Origin: Ruminococcaceae bacterium R-25
GTDB lineage: Bacteria > Bacillota > Clostridia > Saccharofermentanales > Saccharofermentanaceae
Reading direction: 5' to 3'
Assembly (NCBI GenBank): GCA_003149065.1
Contig: QGFZ01000001.1
Coordinates: 930,001-994,000, forward strand
Length of the DNA stretch: 64,000 nucleotides
Made by a program: the position numbers and the translations under genes. Positions 4,801-56,087 of the stretch are shown here, piece after piece. The notes beneath the pieces are model-generated. The model was not told the origin of the DNA. It did no database searches and saw only the letters and a program-made list of their open reading frames with translations. The first letter of the stretch is position 1. Every line of letters begins with the position of its first letter.

Positions 4801-5586
4801 CGCATAAGCAGAATCTCTTAAGCCGGTTGCCTTAAGGCCCATGAAGCCGGTAAAGCTTCCCTTGCCTGCTTCGGAAGAACTGCTCGCCAAAGACTTTTTG
4901 CAGAAATATCCGGTGGTGGAACTTGCTGTCCAATGCATAGGGACGCCGTTTTCGATGCCCGCATAGATCGTAATGTGCTGGGCATTATTCTTGTCGTTAT
5001 TGTCGTTCCACCACAAGATCATGTCGCCGGGCTTAAAGCCGTAAGTGTTGATTATCGTGATCCATTCATCGTTTTGAATGCCCTTGGTGCCGTTCGTATC
5101 AAAGCTCGAAAACTTATTTTCTGTGGGAGTTATGCCTTTTTTCTTAAGAAGGCCGTCTTTAAAGCTAGACTTGATGCCTGCAAATCCCGGTCTGTAAAAG
5201 CCGTATTTGTCGGGATTGCCGCCGCCTGCATAAGATAATGTCCTGTTACCGTAAGTTCCGGGCGTACTCTGGATATAAGCAGTCTTCAAAGTGACGCTGT
5301 ATACAAAACTTACCGAACCTGCGCAGTCTATGCCGTTCCAGCCGCCTCCGCCCCATGTATACTTAACACCGTTTAAGCTGCTGCAGGCAGAAAGGATACG
5401 GTCCCTGAAAGCCTTCTCGCTCGTATATCCGGCTTTCCTTGTATCAGATTCGGAAACAAGCGCATTTGAACTTAATACAGCGGCACAAACATCAGTTCCA
5501 ACAAATAACGGCAGAGCGCTCATCGCAACTGCTGCCGTCATCAGAAAAGCCAGTATCTTGGCTTTATTCTTTTTTCGTATCTTCAT
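1855..5586 (-). CDS. Large surface adhesin: NlpC/P60 + SpaA-like + VaFE repeats
   Basis: A 1243-residue exported protein. I start it at the ATG at 5586 (MKIRKKNKAK...) because GGAGG sits 12 nt upstream and a typical signal peptide follows (residues 1-36). Residues about 55-230 look like an NlpC/P60 cysteine peptidase, with Cys88 in GIDCAGSV and His204 in QHITIYAG. Next come SpaA/Cna-B-like domains (for example the segment starting SGKIEVYKE and the one starting LECSVKVAK). Then there are three VaFE-type repeats, each ending in AxHEDLxDxxQ (the Thr-Gln ester-bond signature) near EHKDLNDNDQ, VHEDINDEGQ and AHEDLDNKDQ. The C-terminus has IPISG, a hydrophobic span and the basic tail KRKMIKR. That is a cell-wall sorting layout, but IPISG replaces LPXTG. 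The sortase gene is coupled downstream. Confidence 0.85.
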   Translation of the reverse strand: MKIRKKNKAKILAFLMTAAVAMSALPLFVGTDVCAAVLSSNALVSESDTRKAGYTSEKAFRDRILSACSSLNGVKYTWGGGGWNGIDCAGSVSFVYSVTLKTAYIQSTPGTYGNRTLSYAGGGNPDKYGFYRPGFAGIKSSFKDGLLKKKGITPTENKFSSFDTNGTKGIQNDEWITIINTYGFKPGDMILWWNDNNDKNNAQHITIYAGIENGVPMHWTASSTTGYFCKKSLASSSSEAGKGSFTGFMGLKATGLRDSAYAGFYLDKRDPSGINYLGAVFTVYKDSDLKNRAGELRDDDGDGVYTDYYALSGSAFAKQSFTITPKSGEEGTYEDTLYIRETNKPSGVLLPDGSKKSLKDADGNIPSVYSFLDPDVYVVHVKVSGTDGSKGKLEYSVKRSGGKDLYSFTKNDYPYTSGSNVMLITNMSTAEETAGRGKGAGLFSDGSSLSLEKTTKTSFDITTTVFTITEGANLVATYKFLDGCWNWYDAFGNKWEGTSSFPLKYDTEYVITETFEKAPPFACSDGNTIDYEFTNDSDWEKVNETTYKYMFKTDSLGSKKTYSFTCENNKLSGKIEVYKEVKDKDDSKEGCVFELWNKDKTIKLAEGVSDKDGKVKWKSQGAAAFELADVPCGRYVLCEVCPDISYHGSKARYVYEVPEGFTDGKDGKWYKEITVAADTIKETVVNDRLECSVKVAKSSEDKVISNVEFSITYGGLNEEPVWDSKPLSNGKTDSKGYLVFTNLPTGWYRVDEKVEPAYKVTWDDGTTGKSRIFKLTKADDNKVIEVKAANKIDIKPLLSTSLTDNNQSHKINCGKDIELTDKVHFENLTAGYEYKITGCLVNKISGGILKDKDGNEYKTTVTFKADKSLGEISLDEKGREVVTGDVSVRFKIDSGLLFEQAFAEGAAELSVVCTETLIFRDIVIAEHKDLNDNDQTISISPAISTSATDANTNTSVMTLSETIGINDSLSFTGLNPGDKYIATGILMDKATGEPYVDSDGNTYTKTVKFTPKSPDGYVIVPFENVNVPLDTIELVVFESVKTENGTNPIAVHEDINDEGQTVRRPSCKTLATTVKGDKTFLKNSTVTIVDHVSYENLEVGHTYYAKATLKLSSGSEVTSKGTEVVSLQKFEPEEPSGVVDVKLKFKAQGLNSGDTVVVIENIYDMSTEEETALGIQYEDIRVIAHEDLDNKDQSLSVTDIPISGELLSSKTVIGAVIFLVSVGAGAYFVTDEIKRKMIKRNIR

Positions 5587-5587
5587 T

Positions 5588-6550
5588 TCACGATGCTTCC
5601 TCCATTTTGTCAGTGATGCACTTAAGAGAACCATCAACAATGCTGATGCGGTAAATACTGTCAGATAATCTCTCGGAAATTCTTACATGCTCGCTGTTTG
5701 TTTCCTTAACGAGGCTTATCAGTTTATGGCTCTCGCTGAAAGTCTCGGTCGAAAGGATCACGAGGTCATGTACTGATGAGGGCAGGATATAGCAATCAGT
5801 TCCGATGCTGTTTACGATCTTTTTCAGGACATCGGAATACAAAAGCGCATTAGCGCCGAAGAACTCAGCTTCGTTGCTGATAACATAGACCCTGTCTTTT
5901 TCGGGGATGTCGTCTTTGCCTGCAAATGTTTCTTCTATATGCTTGTCCTCAACGCCCCAGCGCTTCATAAGGCGCACCATCGTATCTTCGATCCTCTCGC
6001 TCTTAAAAGGAAATAACTTTTTCGTATTCTTCTTAGCGAGGCGGTACAAAACAGATTCAGTAAGTTCTTCTGATTTGGCGATATCGTTGGTAATAAGGAA
6101 TCCCGAAACTCCGTGCTCATCCATGTTGACTATTGCTCTATAGACGACCGTAAGATCCATGAAATCCCTGTGGGGGCAGTGCTTGATCATCTCCTGGTTT
6201 TCCTTGGTATTAACGATCTGGAAAACTATCTTGTCCTTGATGCTTTCAAAATCAAATTGCAGGATGTCATCAGGCAGGCACTTTAATGACTCTTCAAGGT
6301 AGATTGCCTGGTTAGCCATGACCTTCTCGAAAGATTCACATTCAAGATACTGGTCGTACATTCTCTCCATGTAGAAAGTTGGGCTGCAGTATGAACGCGG
6401 CGTTCCCTTAGGCTTTATCACAACACCCGTAAGGCATGTATTCACCTTCGGCACTTTCCTAAGCTCGATTTCGCAGTCTGAATACCTCTCAGGCATATAG
6501 TCCAAGAACTCATTCATTACTCTCTCCTTAAAACTCTCGTAGTCCATCAT
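5588..6550 (-). CDS. DUF5688-like cytoplasmic protein
   Basis: 320 residues with no signal peptide or membrane span. It resembles the DUF5688 family of clostridial proteins, which has no known function: an N-terminal block beginning YESFKERVMNEF, a middle block YRAIVNMDEHGVSGFLITNDIA, and a C-terminal block CYILPSSVHDLVILS. GGAGG lies 9 nt before the first of two adjacent ATGs, so either Met could start the protein. Its stop codon is 1 nt before the adhesin ATG, which puts it first in the adhesin-sortase operon. Whether it has a role in surface-protein production is inference from position only. Confidence 0.7.
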   Translation of the reverse strand: MMDYESFKERVMNEFLDYMPERYSDCEIELRKVPKVNTCLTGVVIKPKGTPRSYCSPTFYMERMYDQYLECESFEKVMANQAIYLEESLKCLPDDILQFDFESIKDKIVFQIVNTKENQEMIKHCPHRDFMDLTVVYRAIVNMDEHGVSGFLITNDIAKSEELTESVLYRLAKKNTKKLFPFKSERIEDTMVRLMKRWGVEDKHIEETFAGKDDIPEKDRVYVISNEAEFFGANALLYSDVLKKIVNSIGTDCYILPSSVHDLVILSTETFSESHKLISLVKETNSEHVRISERLSDSIYRISIVDGSLKCITDKMEEAS

Positions 6551-6582
6551 GTTTTCTGTCCTCCGTAAAAAATATTGGAAAT

Positions 6583-6612
6583 AAAAAAACGCACCCTCAA
6601 AAGGATGCGTTC
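6583..6612 (-). terminator. Rho-independent terminator of the def-thiN operon
   Basis: On the minus strand AACGCATCCT pairs with AGGGTGCGTT (10 bp including one G-U pair) across a TTTG loop and is followed by seven T residues. It lies 130 bp past the thiN stop. The strand between (about 6613-6740) holds no gene that I can see. Confidence 0.8.
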
Positions 6613-6740
6613 ATTCATTTGCACTATAAGTATAGATCCCTTCCCCGGTCTCATTCAATAAGCCAAAGTCTCAATTTTGGCACCCGGAATTTCAATTTGT
6701 CTTTTTGAAAAACATGCTCAAACGCAATTGCAGCAGGGCT

Positions 6741-7409
6741 TTAGTCCGCTTTTGTAACCGTTAAAAGGAGCTTGCCTGACTTAATGGAAACTGAGATGGA
6801 AAATACGCCTTTAACAGGATGGTTCGAAAAAGAATAAGATGACCCGGCTTTTAGCGTTGCATCTTTTAAAGCATAGTAAAGGCCTTCAGTGGTAACGCCT
6901 GTTACAGGTGTATCGAAATCAAACGGAATAAGCGAAACACTTGCATCATCTTTATAAGCCCTGACGCTGCATTCCGCATGATCTTCGCCTGATAACGGGA
7001 AGCACACGGTGATACCGTCTGAGACCGTTATCTTATAACCTTCAGCTCTGAACTTCATCGCAAGGCCCAGGTTTGCCATGACGTGATCGATCCTGCCGGA
7101 CAAAGGACATACAAGGATTATCTCATCGTCTTTAGTTGCCTTGCCCAAAGCTATCTCTGAGTCTGTCCAGTCTTTTTCGACAGGGTATTTTTCGACAGGG
7201 ATATTATTTGCACTGATATATTCCAGACCGGCCTTGGAGATAGAATCCATGTCTCCTACTACAAGAGACGGGATTATACCGGCTTTAGCAAGGAAATCAC
7301 AGCCTGAATCGCATGCGATGACAGTTGTATCGGCAGCTTCCGAAAAGCCCCTGACAACGTCAGCAGCATGAACGCTCAATGGTCCGCCTGTTACGATAAC
7401 AAAGCGCAT
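6741..7409 (-). CDS. thiN: Thiamine pyrophosphokinase
   Basis: Transfers pyrophosphate from ATP to thiamine, giving thiamine diphosphate in the cytoplasm. The 222 residues have the family's N-terminal catalytic part with the Asp-rich motif VVGDMDSI, followed by EKYPVEKDWTDSEIAL and the loop CPLSGRIDHVMANLGL. The C-terminal beta domain holds the thiamine-binding stretch (TEGLYYAL, SFSNHPV). Length is normal. The start overlaps the end of rpe by 19 bp, so it is the last gene of the def-to-thiN operon, as in Bacillus subtilis. Confidence 0.93.
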   Translation of the reverse strand: MRFVIVTGGPLSVHAADVVRGFSEAADTTVIACDSGCDFLAKAGIIPSLVVGDMDSISKAGLEYISANNIPVEKYPVEKDWTDSEIALGKATKDDEIILVCPLSGRIDHVMANLGLAMKFRAEGYKITVSDGITVCFPLSGEDHAECSVRAYKDDASVSLIPFDFDTPVTGVTTEGLYYALKDATLKAGSSYSFSNHPVKGVFSISVSIKSGKLLLTVTKAD

Positions 7410-8053
7410 CTTTTAAGGTCTTCTATGGCTTTTGCAGGATCTTCAGCATTAAAAACGGTGCTGCCTGCAACGAATAATCTGGCACCAGCGTCGTAGACTT
7501 CTTTTACATTGCCTAATGTGATGCCGCCGTCAACGGAGATGATGGTATCAGCGCCTGCGTCATCAATTGCTTTTCTTAATTTAGCGATCCTCTCATTTGA
7601 GGAAGCAAGATAGCCCTGGCCGCCAAAGCCGGGATATACGGTCATGATGAGGATTATCTCTACTTTTCCGATGTAAGGGAAAACCTTTTCGATTGGCGTA
7701 TCGGGATGGATTGAGATTCCTGCCGTGCACCCTAATGCCTTGATGTCTTCAATCAACTTATCAGGGTTTTCGGAACACTCGACGTGGAATGTGATGTTGT
7801 CAGAACCTGCGTCTGCAAATGCCTTGATATACTTTTCGGGCTCAGTGATCATGAGGTGCGTATAAAACTTCATGTCTGTATATTTGCGGATTGACTGGAT
7901 GACAGGGATTCCGAAGGAGATGTTATTAACATAATGGCCGTCCATAACGTCTATATGGAGGTATTCACAGTGGCCTTCGACCTTCTTGATATCTCTCATC
8001 AGATAGCCAAAATCCGCTGCAAGAATGGACGGTGCTATATCAATGTAACTCAT
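7391..8053 (-). CDS. rpe: Ribulose-phosphate 3-epimerase
   Basis: Interconverts ribulose 5-phosphate and xylulose 5-phosphate in the pentose phosphate pathway, a TIM-barrel metalloenzyme. It shows PSILAADFGYL at the N-terminus, the metal/catalytic motif LHIDVMDGHYV, the second metal His in YTHLMI, MTVYPGFGGQGY, and the catalytic Asp in ISVDGGI. The phosphate-binding AGSTVF is near the end. 220 residues is full length. Its ATG overlaps the rsgA stop (ATGA) and its 3' end overlaps thiN, so all three are coupled. Confidence 0.95.
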   Translation of the reverse strand: MSYIDIAPSILAADFGYLMRDIKKVEGHCEYLHIDVMDGHYVNNISFGIPVIQSIRKYTDMKFYTHLMITEPEKYIKAFADAGSDNITFHVECSENPDKLIEDIKALGCTAGISIHPDTPIEKVFPYIGKVEIILIMTVYPGFGGQGYLASSNERIAKLRKAIDDAGADTIISVDGGITLGNVKEVYDAGARLFVAGSTVFNAEDPAKAIEDLKRCALLS

Positions 8054-8976
8054 TGTTTTCTCCTATGCTTGTAATTGTTCCTATTATCGTAAAGCTCCGT
8101 ATAAAAGCTCTTATATCTCTCGTAGCGGCCTTCGTCCAAAAGGCCTTCTGCCAAAGCGTTTCTTACGACGCACCCGTCTTCTTTCCTGTGCGAACAGTCG
8201 TCGAACCTGCAGCCTTGCGCAATCGAAGTTATCTCTGGATATCCGTATAGAACATCCCTGTAATCGACGCCCTGGTCCTCTAAAGACAGCGAGGTAAAGC
8301 CCGGTGTGTCGCAGATAAAACCGTCGAAAAACTCGTGAAGCTCGACATGCCTCGTGGTATGTTTTCCGCGCTTGATCTTTGCACTTACTTCACCTGTTTC
8401 CATCAGGTCATACCCTAAAAGAGAATTACAGAGCGTACTCTTGCCGACGCCGGAAGGACCGGCAAAGGCCGCAATTCCATCACCTATTATATCCTTAAGA
8501 TCACTTTTGGTAAGAGGCTTTAGATGTGAAGATAATAAAACTTCGTAACCTGCCTTAGTATAAACTGAACAAAGCCTGCTGCCGTCATCTTCATTAAGGT
8601 CGCTCTTGGTAAAAATGATGACAGGCTTTATGTCTCTTAATGAGCATACTAAAAGCATCTTATCGAGTAACGTAAGGTCCGGTTCGGGATTAGTAACGGA
8701 AAACGTCAGGAGCATAATCGAAAGGTTTGCTACAGGAGGCCTTGCTATAAAGCTTACCCTGTCCTTGATATCAGTAATGACATAAGGAACATCAGGGTCA
8801 CCGGAAGGCATGATCGTTACCTTATCGCCGATTGCAGGCTTGATGCCCTTTAATCTGAACTGGCCTCTGGCAGCGCAGCTTACATATTGATAAGAGCCAT
8901 CATGAAAGAAGCGAACGGTGTAAACACCGCCCACTCCTTTAGTAATTACTCCGTTAAAAGTTCCGGTTTCTGCCAT
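8050..8976 (-). CDS. rsgA: Ribosome small-subunit-dependent GTPase A
   Basis: A late 30S-assembly GTPase that checks and releases maturing small subunits. Domain order is the expected circular permutation. An OB-fold lies at about residues 1-75. The GTPase then carries G4 (TKSDL) before G1 (GPSGVGKST), G2 (HTTRHVEL) and G3 (DTPGF). A C-terminal zinc motif follows, with Cys/His residues in CRFDDCSHRKEDGCVV. 308 residues is typical. It sits 11 nt after prkC and overlaps rpe. In B. subtilis the orthologue is a PrkC substrate; the shared operon fits that but does not prove it here. Confidence 0.95.
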   Translation of the reverse strand: MAETGTFNGVITKGVGGVYTVRFFHDGSYQYVSCAARGQFRLKGIKPAIGDKVTIMPSGDPDVPYVITDIKDRVSFIARPPVANLSIMLLTFSVTNPEPDLTLLDKMLLVCSLRDIKPVIIFTKSDLNEDDGSRLCSVYTKAGYEVLLSSHLKPLTKSDLKDIIGDGIAAFAGPSGVGKSTLCNSLLGYDLMETGEVSAKIKRGKHTTRHVELHEFFDGFICDTPGFTSLSLEDQGVDYRDVLYGYPEITSIAQGCRFDDCSHRKEDGCVVRNALAEGLLDEGRYERYKSFYTELYDNRNNYKHRRKQ

Positions 8977-8987
8977 CAGTTCTAACC

Positions 8988-11129
8988 CTATCCGTTGTTT
9001 CCGGGTCCGGGATTGGGGTTCTGATTCTGGTTCTGGTTCTGATTCTGGTTAGGATCAGGCTGCTGTCCGCCGCCACCGCCCGTGCCGGGATCCGGCTGTA
9101 CAGGTGTAGGTGTCGGAGGTACAGGTGTAGGTGTATCCGTAGGCAACGGCGTATTTGTCGGCAATGCAGAGAATACAACCGTAAATGTCGTGCTCTCCTT
9201 AACGACAAATGTGTAGTTAAGTGAGTAAGTTACGATATTGCCCAAAGAATCCATCCAGTACTCAAACTTGAAGCCTGCGGCAGGAGTTGCCGTGAGAGTT
9301 ACCTGGGTATTGAGCTCATATGTTCCAGCACCGGTTGCTGTACCGCTTCCCTTCATAGCGATGTCGATGACTGCCTGAGGAGGTGTAGGCGTAGGTGTGC
9401 CGCCGTTCTGGTAATCTTCCTTGGTTCCGACAAAGAGCTTGACGGAAGACTTTCTTGCAACAGAGGAACCTGCTACAGGATTTGTAAGGATTACGTACTG
9501 CTTCTTTGCATCGAGTGCAAGAACTTCAGGCGAGCCTTCGATCGTATAGTTGAGGCTGCTTTCTTCAAGCTTCTTCTTAGCTTCTGCAACAGTATTTCCT
9601 ACAACGTCAGGAACGATAGAGGACTTAGGCTCGGTAGCATAGATGATGATTACCGATTCGCCTCTTAATACCTGTGTATTAGCTTCAGGTTCAGTCCTTA
9701 TTACCTGACCCGGAGTTACATTGTCCGAAGGCTCTGTGCGCAAAACAGGCTCAAGACCGAGATTCTTTAAGGACTTATATGCATCCTTATAGTTCATGTT
9801 TGAATAATCCTGAAGGATTACCGATTCTTCGGCAGAAGATACTGTGAGGACAAGGTTGCTGATCTTATTTGTCGTGGAAACCACAACGCCCTCACGGATG
9901 CTCTGGGCAATAACGATTCCGGGCTCATAAGCATCAGAATCCTGATATTCGATCGAATAGTATACATTAGCGGCATCAAGCTTCTTGATGACTTCGTCTG
10001 CCTTAAGGCCGACATAGTTTTCGATCTCATAGTCTGTATTCTGCTCGATGCTTGTGGCATTTCCGACTGCCCTTATAACGAGGATTCCGATACCGATCAG
10101 AACGCCTACGATAACAACAATAATGAGAGCTAAAAGGACATTGTCCCTGAATCTTGAGATACGTCTGGATTCAGCGCTCTTTTCGATCTCTGAGATCTTC
10201 TCATACTCAGGATCCTGTCTGAAAGAGATATTTGTATCTGTGCTTGCAGCCTTTTCGGGAACGTTCGTGATAACGCCGTATACACCGTTAGGATCAACGA
10301 GCAGTGAATCAAGCTCGGTTACGAGCTGGCGCATTGTCTGGTAACGTCTCTCAGGGCTCTTCTGCATACACTTGGCGATGATGGAATCAAGGCCTTTCGG
10401 GATTCCCTGCATCAATGAAGAAGGAACCGGTGGTGTTTCCTGAAGGTGCTTAACTGCGATAGCAACGTTGGAATCGCCGTCAAACGGAAGTCTTCCTGTT
10501 ACCATCTCGAAAAGGGATACGCCCAATGAATAGATATCAGACTGGGGACCTACATTGCCGCCTCTTGCCTGCTCGGGCGAGAAATAATGAACGGAGCCCA
10601 TCTGAACACCGGTCATGGTGATCGTCGTGGAAGATGCGGCTCTTGCGATACCAAAGTCCGTTATCTTAGCTACACGGTCACGTGAGATAAGGATATTCTG
10701 GGGCTTGATGTCTCTGTGAACTATTCCGTTCTGGTGAGCATAGTCCAATGCAAGACCGATCTGGATAACGATCGGGACAGCATTTTTCCAGTCCAGGTGT
10801 CCATTCTGGTTGATGAGGTCTTTTACAGTGATGCCTTCGATATATTCCTGAACGATATATCTGAAGTTTCCTTCGTGGCCTACACCGTAAACCTTAACAA
10901 TGTTGGCGTGGTTTAAAGATGCTACAGACTTAGCTTCCGCATCGAACCTTCTGATGAATTCATCGTCAGATGAGAACTCGGGCTTTAAGATCTTGATGGC
11001 AACGTTAGCGCCGGTGTTCATGTCGATTCCGAGATATACGTTAGCCATACCGCCTGAGCCAATAAGCTTGACGATCCTGTACTTGTTCGCAAATATCATG
11101 CCCTCAGGGCCGTGAACCTGATTTGCCAT
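8988..11129 (-). CDS. prkC: PASTA-domain Ser/Thr protein kinase (PrkC/Stk1 type)
   Basis: A membrane Ser/Thr kinase that senses muropeptides or lipid II through external PASTA domains and controls growth and cell-wall functions. The kinase domain (about residues 13-275) has the Gly loop IGSGGMANVY, VAIKIL, the catalytic loop VHRDIKPQN, DFGIA and SPEQARG. A single TM helix (about 330-352, NVLLALIIVVIVGVLIGIG) is followed by three PASTA repeats (about 365-570). After these come a TPTPP linker, a domain resembling an InlB B-repeat (about 590-650), a second TPTP-rich stretch and a Gly/NQ-repeat tail. That tail is unusual for PrkC. GGAG lies 5 nt before the ATG; prpC ends 9 nt upstream. Confidence 0.95.
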   Translation of the reverse strand: MANQVHGPEGMIFANKYRIVKLIGSGGMANVYLGIDMNTGANVAIKILKPEFSSDDEFIRRFDAEAKSVASLNHANIVKVYGVGHEGNFRYIVQEYIEGITVKDLINQNGHLDWKNAVPIVIQIGLALDYAHQNGIVHRDIKPQNILISRDRVAKITDFGIARAASSTTITMTGVQMGSVHYFSPEQARGGNVGPQSDIYSLGVSLFEMVTGRLPFDGDSNVAIAVKHLQETPPVPSSLMQGIPKGLDSIIAKCMQKSPERRYQTMRQLVTELDSLLVDPNGVYGVITNVPEKAASTDTNISFRQDPEYEKISEIEKSAESRRISRFRDNVLLALIIVVIVGVLIGIGILVIRAVGNATSIEQNTDYEIENYVGLKADEVIKKLDAANVYYSIEYQDSDAYEPGIVIAQSIREGVVVSTTNKISNLVLTVSSAEESVILQDYSNMNYKDAYKSLKNLGLEPVLRTEPSDNVTPGQVIRTEPEANTQVLRGESVIIIYATEPKSSIVPDVVGNTVAEAKKKLEESSLNYTIEGSPEVLALDAKKQYVILTNPVAGSSVARKSSVKLFVGTKEDYQNGGTPTPTPPQAVIDIAMKGSGTATGAGTYELNTQVTLTATPAAGFKFEYWMDSLGNIVTYSLNYTFVVKESTTFTVVFSALPTNTPLPTDTPTPVPPTPTPVQPDPGTGGGGGQQPDPNQNQNQNQNQNPNPGPGNNG

Positions 11130-11138
11130 ATTATCTCC

Positions 11139-11885
11139 TTATAGTTCGGTTGCGGGCTCTGCTTTCGCAAGCGTAACCGTAATATTATCTGTACTTTGTC
11201 CTTCGAGCGCCCGGGCAATCAGCTTGCTGCAGATGCTTTCAGGGTTATTTCTTTCTTTTGTGCAGGCCTTGAACTGCTCGTCAGTCATATATGAATAAAG
11301 TCCGTCCGAGCAAAGGAAGACCAGATCACCGTAACTTATATTATAACTGTAAATATCAGGATTGAGATACTGGTTCTCCCCGACGACCATGAGGAGCCTT
11401 GATCTTCCGGGATGATATTTAGCATCATCTTCAGTCAAAAGCCCCTGTTTTACGAGCTTGGCAGCTTCATTGTGATCTTCAGTGAGCTTGATGAGCTCAG
11501 ATCCGTGCAGGAGATATCCCCTGGTATCGCCTATATGTGCGATCGTAAGTTCCGTTCCCTTCATGAGCGCAACAGTAAGCGTCGTGCACATGCCCATGCG
11601 CTCCCTGTTTTCGAGACAGTCATGGAGGATCATGATATTTACTCTGTTAAATAATACTTTTAGGAAATGCGGGAGCTCGTCTTTGCTGTCGATAAAAGCA
11701 AGGCTGTCCTTTAGAGTTGCCATGACGCCGTCTACGGCAATCTTGCTCGCGATCTCACCGCAGCATTCGCCGCCAACACCGTCAGCTACGGCCATGCAGA
11801 AATAGCCGCCTATCTGAGCATAGGCAAAGCTGTCTTCGTTGGTGTCCCTTACGGGACCTTTTTCGGACATTCCGTAAGTTAACAT
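11139..11885 (-). CDS. prpC: PP2C-type Ser/Thr phosphatase (PrpC/Stp1)
   Basis: A soluble metal-dependent phosphatase that reverses PrkC phosphorylation. The 248 residues carry the PP2C motifs: RDTNEDSFAY, VADGVGGECCGE, HIGDTRGYLL, FLCSDGLY and STDNITV, with the metal-binding Asp residues intact. The start overlaps rlmN by 7 bp, and prkC follows after 9 nt. This is the normal prpC-prkC pair of Bacillota. Confidence 0.95.
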   Translation of the reverse strand: MLTYGMSEKGPVRDTNEDSFAYAQIGGYFCMAVADGVGGECCGEIASKIAVDGVMATLKDSLAFIDSKDELPHFLKVLFNRVNIMILHDCLENRERMGMCTTLTVALMKGTELTIAHIGDTRGYLLHGSELIKLTEDHNEAAKLVKQGLLTEDDAKYHPGRSRLLMVVGENQYLNPDIYSYNISYGDLVFLCSDGLYSYMTDEQFKACTKERNNPESICSKLIARALEGQSTDNITVTLAKAEPATEL

Positions 11886-51423: not shown

Positions 51424-51499
51424 GCACCTCTAGCTCAGATGGTAGAGCAACTGACTCTTAATCAGTGGGCCCAGGGTTCGAGTCCCTGGAGGTGCACCA
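51424..51499 (+). tRNA. tRNA-Lys (anticodon CTT)
   Basis: Full cloverleaf of 76 nt with encoded CCA: acceptor stem GCACCTC/GAGGTGC, D arm with GCTC/GAGC, anticodon stem ACTGA/TCAGT with loop CTCTTAA, T arm CAGGG/CCCTG with TTCGAGT. The anticodon CTT reads AAG (Lys). It has its own promoter and a terminator 7 nt after the CCA. Confidence 0.97.
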
Positions 51500-51505
51500 A
51501 AAAGA

Positions 51506-51534
51506 AAAGCCTTGGATAATCCAAGGCTTTTTCT
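51506..51534. terminator. Bidirectional terminator: tRNA-Lys and coiled-coil gene
   Basis: AAAGCCTTGGA and TCCAAGGCTTT form an 11 bp perfect stem with a 3 nt loop. Plus strand is followed by TTCTTTT, minus strand by TCTTTTT. It closes the tRNA transcript and the kinase-VWA-PP2C-coiled-coil operon. Confidence 0.9.
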
Positions 51535-51555
51535 TTTATCCGTATTTTTTTAATA

Positions 51556-52449
51556 TCAGAAATCGTCGCCGTCTTCCAGGAATTCCTTGAATGCTTCAGA
51601 AGTCTCTTCTGCAGAAAGCGTAGTAGTCTTCTTCTTGACTTCCCAAACAGGTTTAGTAGGTTCTTTCTTTTCCTTTTCTTCAACAGACTTGACGGCAGCA
51701 TCAGCAGCTTTGCCCAAAGCTTCCCTGGCAGCTCTCTGTGCAGCTTCCTTGGCAGCCTGAACCTGAGCTTCTCTTTCAGCGATTGCTGCTTTCTTTCTCT
51801 CTTCTTCTTCTCTGGCAGCTTTTTCCGCAGCCTCTTTTGCCTCTCTGGCAGCCTTTTCTTCAGCCTCCTTAGCGGCTTTTTCCGCAGCTTCCTTGGCTGC
51901 CTTTTCAGCAGCTTCTCTTGCAGCTTTCGCTTCAGCCTCTTTTGCGGCCTTTTCTGCTGCTTCCCTGGCAGCCCTCTCAGCCTCAGCCTTAGCTCTTGAT
52001 TCTTCAAGGATCCTCTGCTGGAGCTGTTTTCTCTCTTCGCGGGCCTTGATCTTAGCGTCTTCCTCAGCCTGCTGCTGATTAGCTTCCTTCATGTCCTCTT
52101 CTAACTGCTTACGCTTCTCATCGTTAAGCTGGGCAATGTGGGATGCTTTGAGATCACCTATTGTTTCAGGTGCTGAAACATTCTTCATGATCTTCTCCAT
52201 CTTGGCCTTGCTCTCAGCCTTGGAGCGTTCTTCATCTTCAGCAACCTTAACGCCTAAAGCCTCAAGTCTGGCACGTTCTTCAGGTGAAACAGACGGGTTA
52301 ACATGTGTTTCGACAGGCTCATATGAAACCGCCTTGATTTCAAAATCTTCTACTTCGGAAATGCTGAAATCTGAAGCCGCTTCCTGAATCTTTTTGATAT
52401 CCGGTATCTCAACACCGGGTAATATTTCGTATTTCTTTTCTTCTCTCAT
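51556..52449 (-). CDS. Long coiled-coil protein, Ala/Glu/Lys-rich
   Basis: 297 residues, no signal peptide or TM. Residues about 1-60 are acidic and may be globular. From about 60 to 250 the protein is an almost continuous charged alpha-helix with repeated AAxKAAxEAEEKAAxE-like heptads. A short tail follows with the motif VWEVKKKTTTL and an acidic end (EFLEDGDDF). The extreme bias limits homology calls. It is the last gene of the PP2C/VWA/kinase operon (6 nt after PP2C). A scaffold or substrate role for the kinase/phosphatase pair is inference. Confidence 0.7.
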   Translation of the reverse strand: MREEKKYEILPGVEIPDIKKIQEAASDFSISEVEDFEIKAVSYEPVETHVNPSVSPEERARLEALGVKVAEDEERSKAESKAKMEKIMKNVSAPETIGDLKASHIAQLNDEKRKQLEEDMKEANQQQAEEDAKIKAREERKQLQQRILEESRAKAEAERAAREAAEKAAKEAEAKAAREAAEKAAKEAAEKAAKEAEEKAAREAKEAAEKAAREEEERKKAAIAEREAQVQAAKEAAQRAAREALGKAADAAVKSVEEKEKKEPTKPVWEVKKKTTTLSAEETSEAFKEFLEDGDDF

Positions 52450-52455
52450 AGACGA

Positions 52456-53535
52456 TCACCCTTTAAGCGAAAGCACTAATTCTATTGAACCGATAATGAA
52501 AAGGAAAATTCCGATGGCAAGTACGATAATGGAGAACTTGCTGATCTTCGAAGGTTCCTTTTTAATCTCTTCTTTTGTTTCGGAATACTTGGCTGTTTCT
52601 TCCTTTGAAGGCTCCGATGGCGCCTGATCAGTCTCAGGAACTTCACCGCCGGCACACTTCACGATTATCTCATGCGCATTTATAAGCTCAGGCTTGATAG
52701 CCAGAGACAGGTCTTTGAACGTCTCCGTTGAAGAAGCGAACTTAGCCGCATTACTCTCTAAAGTATCCGGTGACGGTACCTTTGTGCCTTCGAAATACAT
52801 GACACCGAAACTTGCATCATCGCTGGCATTTGAAGAACCGACGATATACTGCTTAACAGTATCCAGGATGGATTTCTCGCCTTCTTCCCTGCCATCCTTA
52901 AACGTTTCAGCCATCTTGGCCACAACGGGCTTAACAAGGCCTGACTCTTCGTTATAGACACTGTCCTGGACGCCGTCTGTCATAAGAGCTATGGCATGAA
53001 CGTCATCTACAGTAGTCTTAAGAAGACGCATATAGTTATCAGCATGAGCAGCAGTAACAAAATATGTCTTGCCGTCCTTATCGTTCTGAGGCATCGAAAT
53101 GGGGCTTACACCTGAAGGAGAGATCCTTACGATAAGACCGTCACCAATATGGCCGATCATCATTCTCCTGTCCTTAACTGCGACGAAGAGCAGTGTGCAT
53201 GAAAGTCTGTCGATGACATCGATCGTGCGCTCTTCCATAATGCCTGCAAAAGCAACACGGAGCTTGGCCATAAGATAGCCTCTTACGGCAGCCTCCCTGT
53301 TTTCGCTGTATAAAGCATCGAAATGATCACATAACGTATCTGAAATAACGTGGACTGCACAGTCAGAACCGAATCTCGCATCGGTATACTGTTTACCGCC
53401 TGCACCATCGGCTATACAAACAACGGAAACGCCGTTTTTGGTAACAGCAAAAGACGCGTCCTCGCATGGAGTACCGCGGTTAACATGCTTATTACCAATC
53501 GTTGTTATCGCACCAACTGTAATTCCCGTATACAT
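52456..53535 (-). CDS. PP2C-type phosphatase with C-terminal membrane anchor
   Basis: 359 residues. The PP2C domain (about 1-255) has CEDASFAV, IADGAGGKQYTD, IGHIGDGLIV, ALMTDGVQDS and SDDASFGV, with the metal-binding Asp residues present. A linker rich in Ser, Glu and Pro follows (about 260-330), then a C-terminal TM helix (about 333-355, FSIIVLAIGIFLFIIGSIELVL). This differs from PrpC elsewhere in the window. The ATG shares one base with the VWA gene stop (TGATG). It is likely to dephosphorylate proteins acted on by the operon's kinase (inference). Confidence 0.88.
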   Translation of the reverse strand: MYTGITVGAITTIGNKHVNRGTPCEDASFAVTKNGVSVVCIADGAGGKQYTDARFGSDCAVHVISDTLCDHFDALYSENREAAVRGYLMAKLRVAFAGIMEERTIDVIDRLSCTLLFVAVKDRRMMIGHIGDGLIVRISPSGVSPISMPQNDKDGKTYFVTAAHADNYMRLLKTTVDDVHAIALMTDGVQDSVYNEESGLVKPVVAKMAETFKDGREEGEKSILDTVKQYIVGSSNASDDASFGVMYFEGTKVPSPDTLESNAAKFASSTETFKDLSLAIKPELINAHEIIVKCAGGEVPETDQAPSEPSKEETAKYSETKEEIKKEPSKISKFSIIVLAIGIFLFIIGSIELVLSLKG

Positions 53536-54266
53536 CAGCTTTCCTCGTTAATGAACTTCATGAAATCGTCCACATCAACAGCATTGCCTTGAGGCGTTGT
53601 GTCGATATTATAAAGTGCATCGTCACTCATTCCGGACGATACGATCGAAGACGAAGAAGAACCGAGGAATTCAAAGAGCTTACCGAAATCTGCGGAATTG
53701 ACCGAGATAGGCTCAGGACGCTTGATGGAGAGTCTCTTTAATAAATCAAAGTCAACACCGGATCCAACGCCGATATTGAATACAACAAGTTTATCGTCTT
53801 TCTCAAGTGCGTTGCATGCTTCTATGGCACGTTCCATGTTAGCCATCGCATTAGGACCTTGAGGAGCGCCGTCAGTGATTACAACGAGCCAGGGCTGGAA
53901 ATACTTGATACCCATCTCCTTATAGCCTTCTTTACGGGCATTGAGGAGCTCTAAAGCTGTAAGGACACCCTCACCGATAGGTGTAAGTGTTGTAGAAGCT
54001 GTGATCTCGGGTAAACCATTTTCCTTGGAGATCTTACCGAAAGGCATTACGATCTCAACCTTGGATCCGAAAGTAATGATAGCGATGTCAGTAGAAGATC
54101 TGGTGTCATCATTGGATTTAATGGAAGATACGAAGTTCTGCAAGCCCATATTGAGCTGCTTGATCGGGTTTCCCATCATTGAACCGGATGTATCCAATGC
54201 AAAACAGATTGGTAATCTTCTTTTAGTACTTGTACCGAAATCGGAACTTGAAAAACCGTCCGCCAT
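53535..54266 (-). CDS. VWA-domain protein, TerY-like
   Basis: 243 residues from the ATG at 54266 (GGAGG 6 nt upstream; a GTG at 54281 has no such site). The von Willebrand A domain has the MIDAS metal site: ICFALDTSGSMMG, the Thr in TLTPIGEGV, and VVITDGAPQG. This is the cytosolic TerY type (no signal peptide or TM), the metal-binding partner in TerY-kinase-PP2C modules. A C-terminal tail (about 215-243) is disordered and acidic. It is coupled to the PP2C gene. Confidence 0.88.
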   Translation of the reverse strand: MADGFSSSDFGTSTKRRLPICFALDTSGSMMGNPIKQLNMGLQNFVSSIKSNDDTRSSTDIAIITFGSKVEIVMPFGKISKENGLPEITASTTLTPIGEGVLTALELLNARKEGYKEMGIKYFQPWLVVITDGAPQGPNAMANMERAIEACNALEKDDKLVVFNIGVGSGVDFDLLKRLSIKRPEPISVNSADFGKLFEFLGSSSSSIVSSGMSDDALYNIDTTPQGNAVDVDDFMKFINEES

Positions 54267-54328
54267 AAAAGTCCTCCGCACATTTCAGAGTTAAAAGTTT
54301 GCACAATTGAATTATATCAGAAGAGACC

Positions 54329-56029
54329 TCAGAATAAACCGAAGAATTTCTTCTTGGGAACAGGTGAAGCTATAGGTGACGTAGCATCGTTTTTAGCCGG
54401 TTTCTCTTCGTCGTCAAACCTCATAGGCCTAAAGCTGGAAGACTGGCCGACAGAAGATGAAACAAATCTTCCTGAAGGCACATTATCGAATTGCTTTTTC
54501 TCAAACTTCGGCTTCGGTTCTGCCGCTCTCTGAGCGCGGTCATTCTGAGCGGCAAGCTTATTTCTGTATTCTTCAACATTAATGCTGACCTGCTTATAGT
54601 CTTCGCAAGGGAAAAGCTTATATGTTTCCGCATCATCGTACTTGAATGTCTCAAGTTCAGTCATGTACTGCTGAACCGCATCTCTCCAGCATACAGCTTC
54701 ATAAGACTTTCCTTCTTTGAAAGTCCTGTAAAGCATTTTGCGCAGGTATTCAGGGAGATACTCCCAGATATGGACATAACCGCCGAGCGGAATGTGTTCC
54801 GTATCAGAATTATCAAGTGTATAAGGGAAATTCTTATTAAGGATCTCTTCCCTTAAAGTCTCGGCACCGTTTCTGGTTGCATAAGGATGAAGACCGCAGA
54901 ACAGCACTGAGAAAACGAGCATTGCGATGGAATAATCCTCATCTTTCAATGTCCTTACGAAGCCTGAAAAATCCTTGCCCCAGAGTGCAGGATCCGTAAA
55001 GTCTTCCGTACCTACAGGACAAGGGAGATTTCCGATCTGGACGCTGTCCATATCGATAAGATACTGGTGCGCGGAATCCTCGATCAATGCATTCTTAAGC
55101 TGGATATCACCGGCAATAACATCATGCATGTGGAGATAAAGATATTTGCCGATAAGTGAGAGCAAAGTCTCGCAGATATCGAGTCTGGTCCAGTATGGGA
55201 ATTTCTCCAAGATCGCATCAGGTCCGTCGAAAACATTGCTTAACGTCGTACCCTTACCTATGAACATCGTATAACCGATGGGAACGTTTCTGAAATAGAG
55301 CAGAGACTGGGGCGCGCAGAAAGATGTTGAAGTAATGCCCAATTCGGTGAGCTTTTTAAGCTTGGCCCATCTTAAAGGCGTAATAACACCCTTATGGTAA
55401 ACCTTTGCGATCAATTTCTTATTATCAGTAAGGAATACCATGCCTTCGGCACCGCCGGAAAGTCTCTTTTCGAGGACCATCCTCTCGCCACCGTTGTAAT
55501 TTACAATATCACCGATGCTGGCTCTGGCATCTGAATCGAGGAAGGAATTGATCTTCGCGAGATTGCTGATTTCAGGCAACGGGTTATCTTCTTTCATCTC
55601 CTTAAGAGACGAATAGATGCGAAGACCCTTATGGGAGAGAATAGCAACATCGTGATTATATTCGAGATCTTTTTCATAAAATCTCTTATAAAGAATACTC
55701 TTCTCAGTTGTAAGAAGAACCGAGAAATCGAGTTCATTTACCTGCTCGATGAATCTCTCGGTATTGCATGTGTTGATAAGGTGGAGCTTATTTGTTGTAA
55801 GAAGGCTCTGCATCAGGGAGCGCATAGCGGGTTGTACTGCCCTGTCCTTAGGGTCTGCTTGAGCAATAACACATTTATGGAGAACTTTGAAGGTATCGTT
55901 GACGTAACAGTCGATTCCGTAGTCATTAAAAAGGTTCAAAAGCTCATCAAAGAGCACTCCGTTGGAGCACTCCAATACAACAGAGTAATCGAGAACAATC
56001 GATAAATACTTGCTCAAGCCTTCAAACAT
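54329..56029 (-). CDS. Atypical protein kinase of TerY-triad type with extra N-terminal domain
   Basis: 566 residues. N-terminal domain (about 1-150) begins SIVLDYSVVLE and contains FSVLLTTEKSILYKR; its pattern is PIN-like, but this is tentative. The kinase-like domain (about 165-470) has a Gly loop in LSGGAEGMVFL, Lys in LIAKVYHKG, a catalytic loop HDVIAGDIQLKNALI and the metal loop LIDMDSVQIG in place of DFG. This pattern matches kinases of TerY-P triads rather than PrkC. The C-terminal 100 residues are low-complexity. It is the first gene of the operon, 30 bp after a promoter -10. Confidence 0.8.
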   Translation of the reverse strand: MFEGLSKYLSIVLDYSVVLECSNGVLFDELLNLFNDYGIDCYVNDTFKVLHKCVIAQADPKDRAVQPAMRSLMQSLLTTNKLHLINTCNTERFIEQVNELDFSVLLTTEKSILYKRFYEKDLEYNHDVAILSHKGLRIYSSLKEMKEDNPLPEISNLAKINSFLDSDARASIGDIVNYNGGERMVLEKRLSGGAEGMVFLTDNKKLIAKVYHKGVITPLRWAKLKKLTELGITSTSFCAPQSLLYFRNVPIGYTMFIGKGTTLSNVFDGPDAILEKFPYWTRLDICETLLSLIGKYLYLHMHDVIAGDIQLKNALIEDSAHQYLIDMDSVQIGNLPCPVGTEDFTDPALWGKDFSGFVRTLKDEDYSIAMLVFSVLFCGLHPYATRNGAETLREEILNKNFPYTLDNSDTEHIPLGGYVHIWEYLPEYLRKMLYRTFKEGKSYEAVCWRDAVQQYMTELETFKYDDAETYKLFPCEDYKQVSINVEEYRNKLAAQNDRAQRAAEPKPKFEKKQFDNVPSGRFVSSSVGQSSSFRPMRFDDEEKPAKNDATSPIASPVPKKKFFGLF

Positions 56030-56058
56030 AGTTATCTAAACACCTTCTCTCCATAGTA

Positions 56059-56087
56059 ATTCTAAACAATAGAAAATTAGAATGCAA
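56059..56087 (-). promoter_or_regulatory. Promoter for the kinase-VWA-PP2C-coiled-coil operon
   Basis: TTGCAT, a 17 bp spacer and TAGAAT on the minus strand. A GGAGAGAAGGTG ribosome site follows 11 nt before the kinase ATG. The AT-rich stretch just upstream (56100-56140) repeats TGACAA-like motifs. Confidence 0.65.

Follow-up and report, generated by a model that had tools for sequence, protein, structure and literature searches.

What is phosphorylated, and to what end, by a kinase whose gene shares an operon with those of a VWA protein, a PP2C phosphatase and a low-complexity fourth protein? The question is raised by a 64,000-nucleotide stretch of the 3.07-Mb genome of Ruminococcaceae bacterium R-25 (contig QGFZ01000001.1, positions 930,001 to 994,000; hereafter the window), in which the four genes are transcribed leftwards in the order kinase, VWA, PP2C, fourth gene (Table 1). 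A first-pass annotation made from the letters alone had placed these minus-strand open reading frames (ORFs) where we find them and had likened the first three to a TerY-P triad; in passages of the PMC papers cited here such triads are met chiefly in connection with defence and stress, without a named substrate. On balance, we consider it probable that the operon encodes a resident, membrane-associated phosphorylation switch of the TerY-P or YegI-PphC-YegL class, with the fourth protein as its dedicated substrate or adaptor. Since the triad seems to be fixed in a family and to keep a single partner at a constant operon position, its substrate can be sought by direct experiment, and such a version would be a case of a defence-type kinase module put to use in routine cell signalling.

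Identity and distribution of the operon

Profile comparisons with hhalign show the kinase (family alignment of 39 kinases) to be homologous to YegI of Escherichia coli (E 1.3e-22, 283 columns), the VWA protein to YegL (E 3.3e-32) and the PP2C to PphC (E 2.5e-11), and because of these homologies we assign the set with high confidence to the TerY-P, or YegI-PphC-YegL, triad. The identity first proposed, which turned on the kinase being related to TerY-P kinases, is borne out. Pfam recognises the VWA protein (PF00092, E 3.8e-15) and the phosphatase (PP2C_2, PF13672, E 3.5e-33), and neither the kinase nor the fourth protein matched any of its models at E ≤ 1. The model of kinase residues 175-476 resembles protein-kinase folds in Foldseek (E 1.5e-9) and in a VIA comparison (Z 19.2, 259 residues, 3.5 Å). 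All 41 family kinases compared share K209, D308, N313 and D326; equally invariant, by our assignment, are the residues of the metal ion-dependent adhesion site (MIDAS; D25, S27, S29, T95 and D132) in 23 of 23 VWA proteins and the PP2C metal-site acids in all 22 aligned sequences; both enzymes are predicted to be active. The VWA protein is the most conserved of the four, the window copy being 61-97% identical to 22 relatives. Rough dN/dS estimates from three pairs, several with dS above 1, are 0.11-0.18 for the fourth gene and 0.03-0.10 for the kinase, VWA and PP2C genes. Pfam found neither a zinc ribbon nor an OB-fold at the kinase C-terminus, where residues 504-566 are modelled with a predicted local distance difference test score (pLDDT) below 50 and end in KKKFFGLF, and the operon is not classed with the TerY-P subtypes defined by those kinase domains.

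The E. coli K-12 locus (2149039-2153128) has the homologous kinase, PP2C and VWA genes, with the VWA gene followed by the PP2C gene and their ends overlapping. YegI has hydrophobic, transmembrane-type stretches, as the family kinases have membrane-type ends, but its kinase domain starts from the N-terminus, with a weak HhH match below cut-off and no PIN-like domain of the kind described below. PphC lacks the membrane anchor of the window's PP2C, and the annotated E. coli stretch contains nothing comparable to the fourth gene. Passages of PMC13232886, which cites two other papers, describe YegI as an autophosphorylating membrane kinase and PphC as dephosphorylating it.

Family f1 is labelled here the Saccharofermentans-like family; among named genomes, those nearest to the window's come from rumen and gut and bear the titles Saccharofermentans, Mageeibacillus, Ruminococcaceae or Clostridiales. 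The kinase was present in 108 of 115 family genomes, including 62 of 62 near-complete ones (≥90% complete, ≤5% contaminated), as a single match per genome except in G013, which has two pieces on two contigs. The fourth gene was present in 107 of the 115, again including all 62, with a single match each. The gaps fall in nine draft genomes, all <90% complete: six without both genes, two with the kinase only and one with the fourth gene only. Neither gene was found in 73 genomes of the order's other families; G032, whose kinase match stands at E 2e-4, was left out of the count of family members with the kinase. Within the class sample of 391 genomes the fourth gene matched 11, all in the family, and the kinase 23, of which 11 belong to the family; four of the other 12 matches are strong and eight (E 9e-6 and weaker) were treated as other kinases. 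So were the kinase matches of 61 of 66 other genomes in the phylum sample (E 2e-11 and weaker), the remaining five being strong. Phage records gave no match to the kinase, and plasmid records gave 48, all below 60% identity and none over more than 80% of the kinase length, with no match to the fourth protein.

Gene order was read from named loci, the best 80 of 109 confirmed, which come largely from the same genomes as the loci with G handles; the two sets are not summed. The full order is found in 75 of the 80 (in one with the VWA as two ORFs). The fourth gene follows PP2C in 77, the other three (L158, L170 and L180) reaching a contig edge first; its absence from the operon in close relatives, named beforehand as refuting the first proposal, was thus not seen. 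At L119 VWA and PP2C are separated by an island, about 6 kb long, that carries response-regulator, histidine-kinase and ABC-transporter genes, the fourth gene coming after PP2C; at L176 the fourth gene is present without its N-terminal motif. At L196 (G051), 5305-10936, the operon is interrupted at this point by an island of about 6 kb that encodes, among other proteins, a response regulator, a histidine kinase and an ABC-transporter ATPase. Greedy ORF picking missed the fourth gene at L038 (island), L057 and L061, and a sequence search recovers it in G051, G104 and G006. Upstream of the kinase, a MutS-like gene is found in 38 of 40 fetched loci, the remaining two being cut, and 21 of the 40 have an extra gene between it and the kinase (a pyridoxal phosphate-dependent decarboxylase in the one scanned). 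Being family-wide and syntenic, the operon appears to be standard equipment of one gut and rumen family rather than an optional phage-defence island, which speaks for a resident role.

The fourth protein and the membrane-type ends

Measured as the longest ORF, copies of the fourth protein that lie whole within their contigs range from 114 to 448 amino acids (aa); a 93-aa copy is a contig-end fragment. Within the first 110 residues of 37 diverse copies, Y, P, A and G of the N-terminal motif are invariant and nine further positions are at least 90% conserved. Residues 156-245 of the window copy comprise 42% Ala and 3% Ile, Leu, Val, Met or Phe, with a four-residue (90 degree) rather than a heptad period. 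The long Ala/Glu/Lys coiled coil first described is only partly right for the window copy and is not a conserved feature, its composition and period making it look more like a single alpha-helical rod than a coiled coil; to judge from the alignments, the conserved parts of the protein are the N-terminal motif and, in close relatives, an acidic Ser/Thr tail. The tail pattern, [DESAG][DESG]FxxF[LFM] near the end with Ser or Thr at most seven residues before it, fits 59 of 75 named copies, and seven more tails (L112-L118, near the window) have Ala at the second residue, giving a Ser/Thr-bearing tail in 66 of 75. GarA-type substrates of actinobacterial kinases are small proteins with an acidic Thr phospho-acceptor stretch and an FHA domain. 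The fourth protein, which has no Pfam match, differs from GarA in the FHA domain and is like it in being a small protein with an acidic stretch that could accept phosphate. An FHA reader of phospho-threonine was also considered and set aside, the sole FHA match of the genome (L205 6322-7554, G000 C1) adjoining a T2SSF (type II secretion F-type) protein with no link shown to the operon.

Hydropathy indicates a C-terminal transmembrane helix in 39 of 39 PP2Cs examined. The phosphatase had been singled out beforehand as the membrane-anchored member; the helix is there, but it is not the only membrane-type end, as a transmembrane helix is found at the C-terminus of 13 of 41 kinases and a short basic-hydrophobic stretch at that of 27 of the remaining 28 (40 of 41 together). 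The window's KKKFFGLF tail is of the latter type and is presumed to bind the membrane and hold the kinase there. A membrane location of both kinase and PP2C is, in our judgement, likely.

In the mechanism that we propose, the C-terminal tail would keep the kinase at the membrane, and the kinase would phosphorylate Ser or Thr of a dedicated partner, most likely the fourth protein within its Ser/Thr-bearing acidic tail, and perhaps also itself; the membrane-anchored PP2C would remove the phosphate. The metal-binding VWA protein would keep kinase, phosphatase and partner together and may confer metal sensitivity. Docking on the complex would fall to the fourth protein's N-terminal motif and spacing of the tail to its variable helical rod, the whole presumably coupling a signal to an output.

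We give the fourth protein an even chance of being the kinase substrate. A less favoured possibility is that it serves as a membrane scaffold or spacer rod and the real substrates lie elsewhere, as would suit a low-complexity rod of variable length behind a conserved N-terminal motif, present in one copy per genome alongside the kinase. The retention of Ser/Thr in most tails argues against this, and because six copies from genera g2-g4 (114-135 aa) have no rod, spacing is not a constant function of the protein.

Several observations weigh against a switch with the fourth protein as its dedicated partner. The short g2-g4 copies have a divergent end, and the window's own tail is the Ala variant. 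Nine of the 75 tails fall outside the pattern: two (L185 and L191) are truncated where the contig stops, in g5-type L187-L190 the motif is replaced by another acidic, Ser-rich end, and in L153, L163 and L164 it is lost or divergent. A motif seen by eye as shared between the VWA and fourth-protein tails was dropped, about 21% of shuffled VWA tails reaching the median real score. The loose basic-hydrophobic rule for kinase ends is also satisfied by 576 of 5600 windows within the kinase linkers. The named loci, as the best 80 of 109, lean towards close relatives, and some of the same genomes supplied the copies behind the N-motif model.

PIN-kinase relatives and the alternative of phage defence

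The switch that we favour carries an extra N-terminal domain on its kinase, as the first-pass annotation had noted. Residues 1-166 fold confidently (AlphaFold2 pLDDT 89.7), and Foldseek with this domain alone returns PIN domains as its top two matches (Utp24, E 8.9e-4; the next, 1.4e-3), then methyltransferases at 1.4e-3 and 2.9e-3. The best VIA match is the PIN domain of SMG6 (Z 8.3, near the level that VIA grades as middling; 115 residues, 3.1 Å), with a terpene synthase (Z 8.2) and other PIN entries close. A viral fold search gave nothing at E ≤ 0.001, its best match being a PIN protein at 2.5e-3; a Pfam scan of the domain found no PIN family in 37 family members; and hhalign support was modest against the PIN domains of four relatives (43.6%, E 2.4e-4) and 1.6% against one relative alone. 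An AAA_18 identity was rejected, with E 7e-4 under its own cut-off and in 8 of the 37 members only. At the positions that we take to be those of the PIN catalytic acids, the first is retained in 41 of 41 kinases (D in 39, E in two) and the second and third are replaced. By its modelled fold the domain is a candidate PIN-like domain without two of the three acids, and it probably has no nuclease activity.

Kinases with such a domain also occur in distant triads. Eight distant kinases were scanned, in which PIN_4 is at or over its cut-off in L192, L212, L235 and L238, below it in L211, L236 and L237, and absent in L193. L192 is from the class sample, L211 is the Lysinibacillus capsici plasmid pFN9B, where another fourth gene has a weak DnaJ match, L212 is a Fusobacterium vincentii record, and L235-L238 are from the phylum sample. 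In all but L193 the kinase is followed by one or more VWA genes and then by PP2C, as in the window, and the PIN_4 match occupies the position of the window's extra domain; full-length alignment with three of these kinases (25-28% identity) is collinear. Unlike the window's family, the three aligned relatives have the PIN acids, and all but L235 have a C-terminal treble-clef/zinc match (below cut-off in L212 and L237). The L235 kinase has a hydrophobic end with no zinc match, its best 19-residue hydropathy of 1.47 being just under the transmembrane cut-off of 1.6. PIN-kinase forms are rare (the four strong matches outside the family in the class sample and the five in the phylum sample), whereas the window's operon is family-wide.

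Helix-turn-helix (HTH) proteins precede PIN-kinase genes at L192 (8029-9018), L212 (5439-6347) and L235 (5480-6343). The second half of the L192 protein looks PIN-like by eye, with Pfam finding the HTH only, and the HTH protein ends GLKGW (L192) and GIKKW (L212) resemble the neighbouring VWA end GIKGW. At L193 (7105-11017) a TIR-Sel1 protein is followed by a zinc-ribbon kinase homologue, its motifs degenerate by eye, and a VWA gene, with no PP2C in the stretch examined.

Sequence comparison suggests that the window operon belongs to the PIN-kinase branch; we infer the order of changes, in which the zinc ribbon and PIN acids would have disappeared and the fourth gene and membrane ends would have been acquired. 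It is a more tentative proposal, for which we would claim a fair way short of even chances, that the operon descends from a TerY-P defence module of the PIN-nuclease-kinase form, which on domestication at the root of the Saccharofermentans family became a housekeeping signalling switch at the membrane, its nuclease dead, its nucleic-acid-binding zinc ribbon exchanged for membrane ends on kinase and phosphatase, and its fourth gene a new dedicated phospho-effector. A literature search returned, among the matches listed, no description of the operon or of a PIN-kinase form of TerY-P; a mention in Anantharaman et al. 2012 is possible.

TerY-P is described, in passages of the respective papers, as acting against T7-like phages (PMC7699616) and as accompanying CoCoNuT systems (PMC11090510) and an island of Helicobacter pylori (PMC4978471). 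The window's operon might likewise be an anti-phage module, similar to the stand-alone TerY-P of Gao et al. 2020, in which infection would trigger the kinase and lead to cell arrest or death. Among the distant relatives, L192 has restriction-modification genes of type III on one side and of type I on the other, L193 comes after a TIR protein, and the Lysinibacillus form is plasmid-borne. We think this role unlikely here: the kinase is present in every near-complete family genome, with the MutS-like gene upstream at nearly all fetched loci, and is unmatched in phage records, the PIN-like domain lacks two of the acids, and the sole PADLOC match, in a library whose coverage of TerY-P was not checked, is to PDC-M13A (E 0.0025) over a 25-residue stretch at the kinase N-terminus. 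The CoCoNuT-type triad with a zinc-ribbon kinase, as passages of PMC11090510 present it, has the VWA, PP2C and kinase set in common with the window's operon, which differs in having no detected zinc ribbon, no nuclease or helicase genes seen alongside, and a family-wide distribution. A metal-stress response of the kind proposed for TerY-P with Ter proteins, with the VWA protein sensing metal and the switch controlling metal resistance (a hypothesis quoted in a passage of PMC11090510), could draw on the intact MIDAS and very high VWA conservation but is also improbable, TerD (PF02342) being matched in 1 of 113 family genomes and, in line with its reported absence from the window, nowhere in the window's whole genome (G000), where no search was made for TerC.

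Flanking elements and neighbouring genes

Table 1 Features of the operon and its borders in the window
Feature	Position	Strand	Size or basis
Kinase gene	54329..56029	-	566 aa; ORF, kinase fold, YegI homology
Protein kinase domain, residues ~175-476	54602..55507	-	Structure comparison; catalytic K209, D308, N313, D326
PIN-like N-terminal domain of kinase, residues 1-166, probably without nuclease activity	55532..56029	-	AlphaFold2 model, Foldseek, VIA
KKKFFGLF C-terminal kinase tail, presumed membrane-binding	54332..54355	-	Preceded by disordered linker
VWA gene (TerY/YegL-like), MIDAS intact	53535..54266	-	PF00092; YegL hhalign
PP2C phosphatase gene	52456..53535	-	359 aa; PF13672; PphC hhalign
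PP2C C-terminal transmembrane helix	52459..52554	-	Hydropathy
Fourth gene	51556..52449	-	297 aa; partner known so far from Saccharofermentans-like family only
Conserved N-terminal motif of fourth protein, KKYEILPGVEIPDIKKIQEAASDFS	52363..52437	-	Alignment of 37 copies
Variable Ala/Glu/Lys rod of fourth protein, residues 156-245	51715..51984	-	Composition, 4-residue period
C-terminal acidic Ser/Thr tail motif of fourth protein, LSAEETSEAFKEFL	51577..51618	-	Tail comparison among relatives
Probable promoter TTGCAT-17-TAGAAT	56059..56087	-	Sequence; TAGAAT conservation
Terminator hairpin between operon and convergent tRNA-Lys	51504..51532	.	13-pair stem

The coupled start described beforehand is present, the VWA stop codon TGA overlapping the ATG of PP2C (TGATG, 53537-53533). 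For the VWA gene the ATG at 54266 (243 aa) is preferred over a GTG giving 248 aa. The promoter placed upstream of the kinase is probable, though its consensus is weak (TTGCAT matches at 3 of 6 positions, TAGAAT at 5 of 6): TAGAAT is conserved in eight of nine close relatives, as is the leader TGGAGAGAAGG. It is absent from the list of a stricter promoter scan, whose promoter-like sites were no more numerous than in shuffles. The predicted terminator was recovered as a stem with a folding z of -5.9 on the minus strand, and, with the operon on one side and a convergent tRNA-Lys gene (51424-51499) downstream on the other, it may serve both.

Upstream of the operon in the window are the MutS-like gene and a sirtuin gene, the latter adjoined by a gene for a bacterial PH-domain protein (PF03703, 58975-59454). 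A canonical PknB-type PASTA kinase and an Stp1-like PP2C are encoded at 8988-11885, about 40 kb from the operon, so that the triad would be a second Ser/Thr system; the PASTA pair is likewise a Ser/Thr kinase with a PP2C, but of other families and at another locus.

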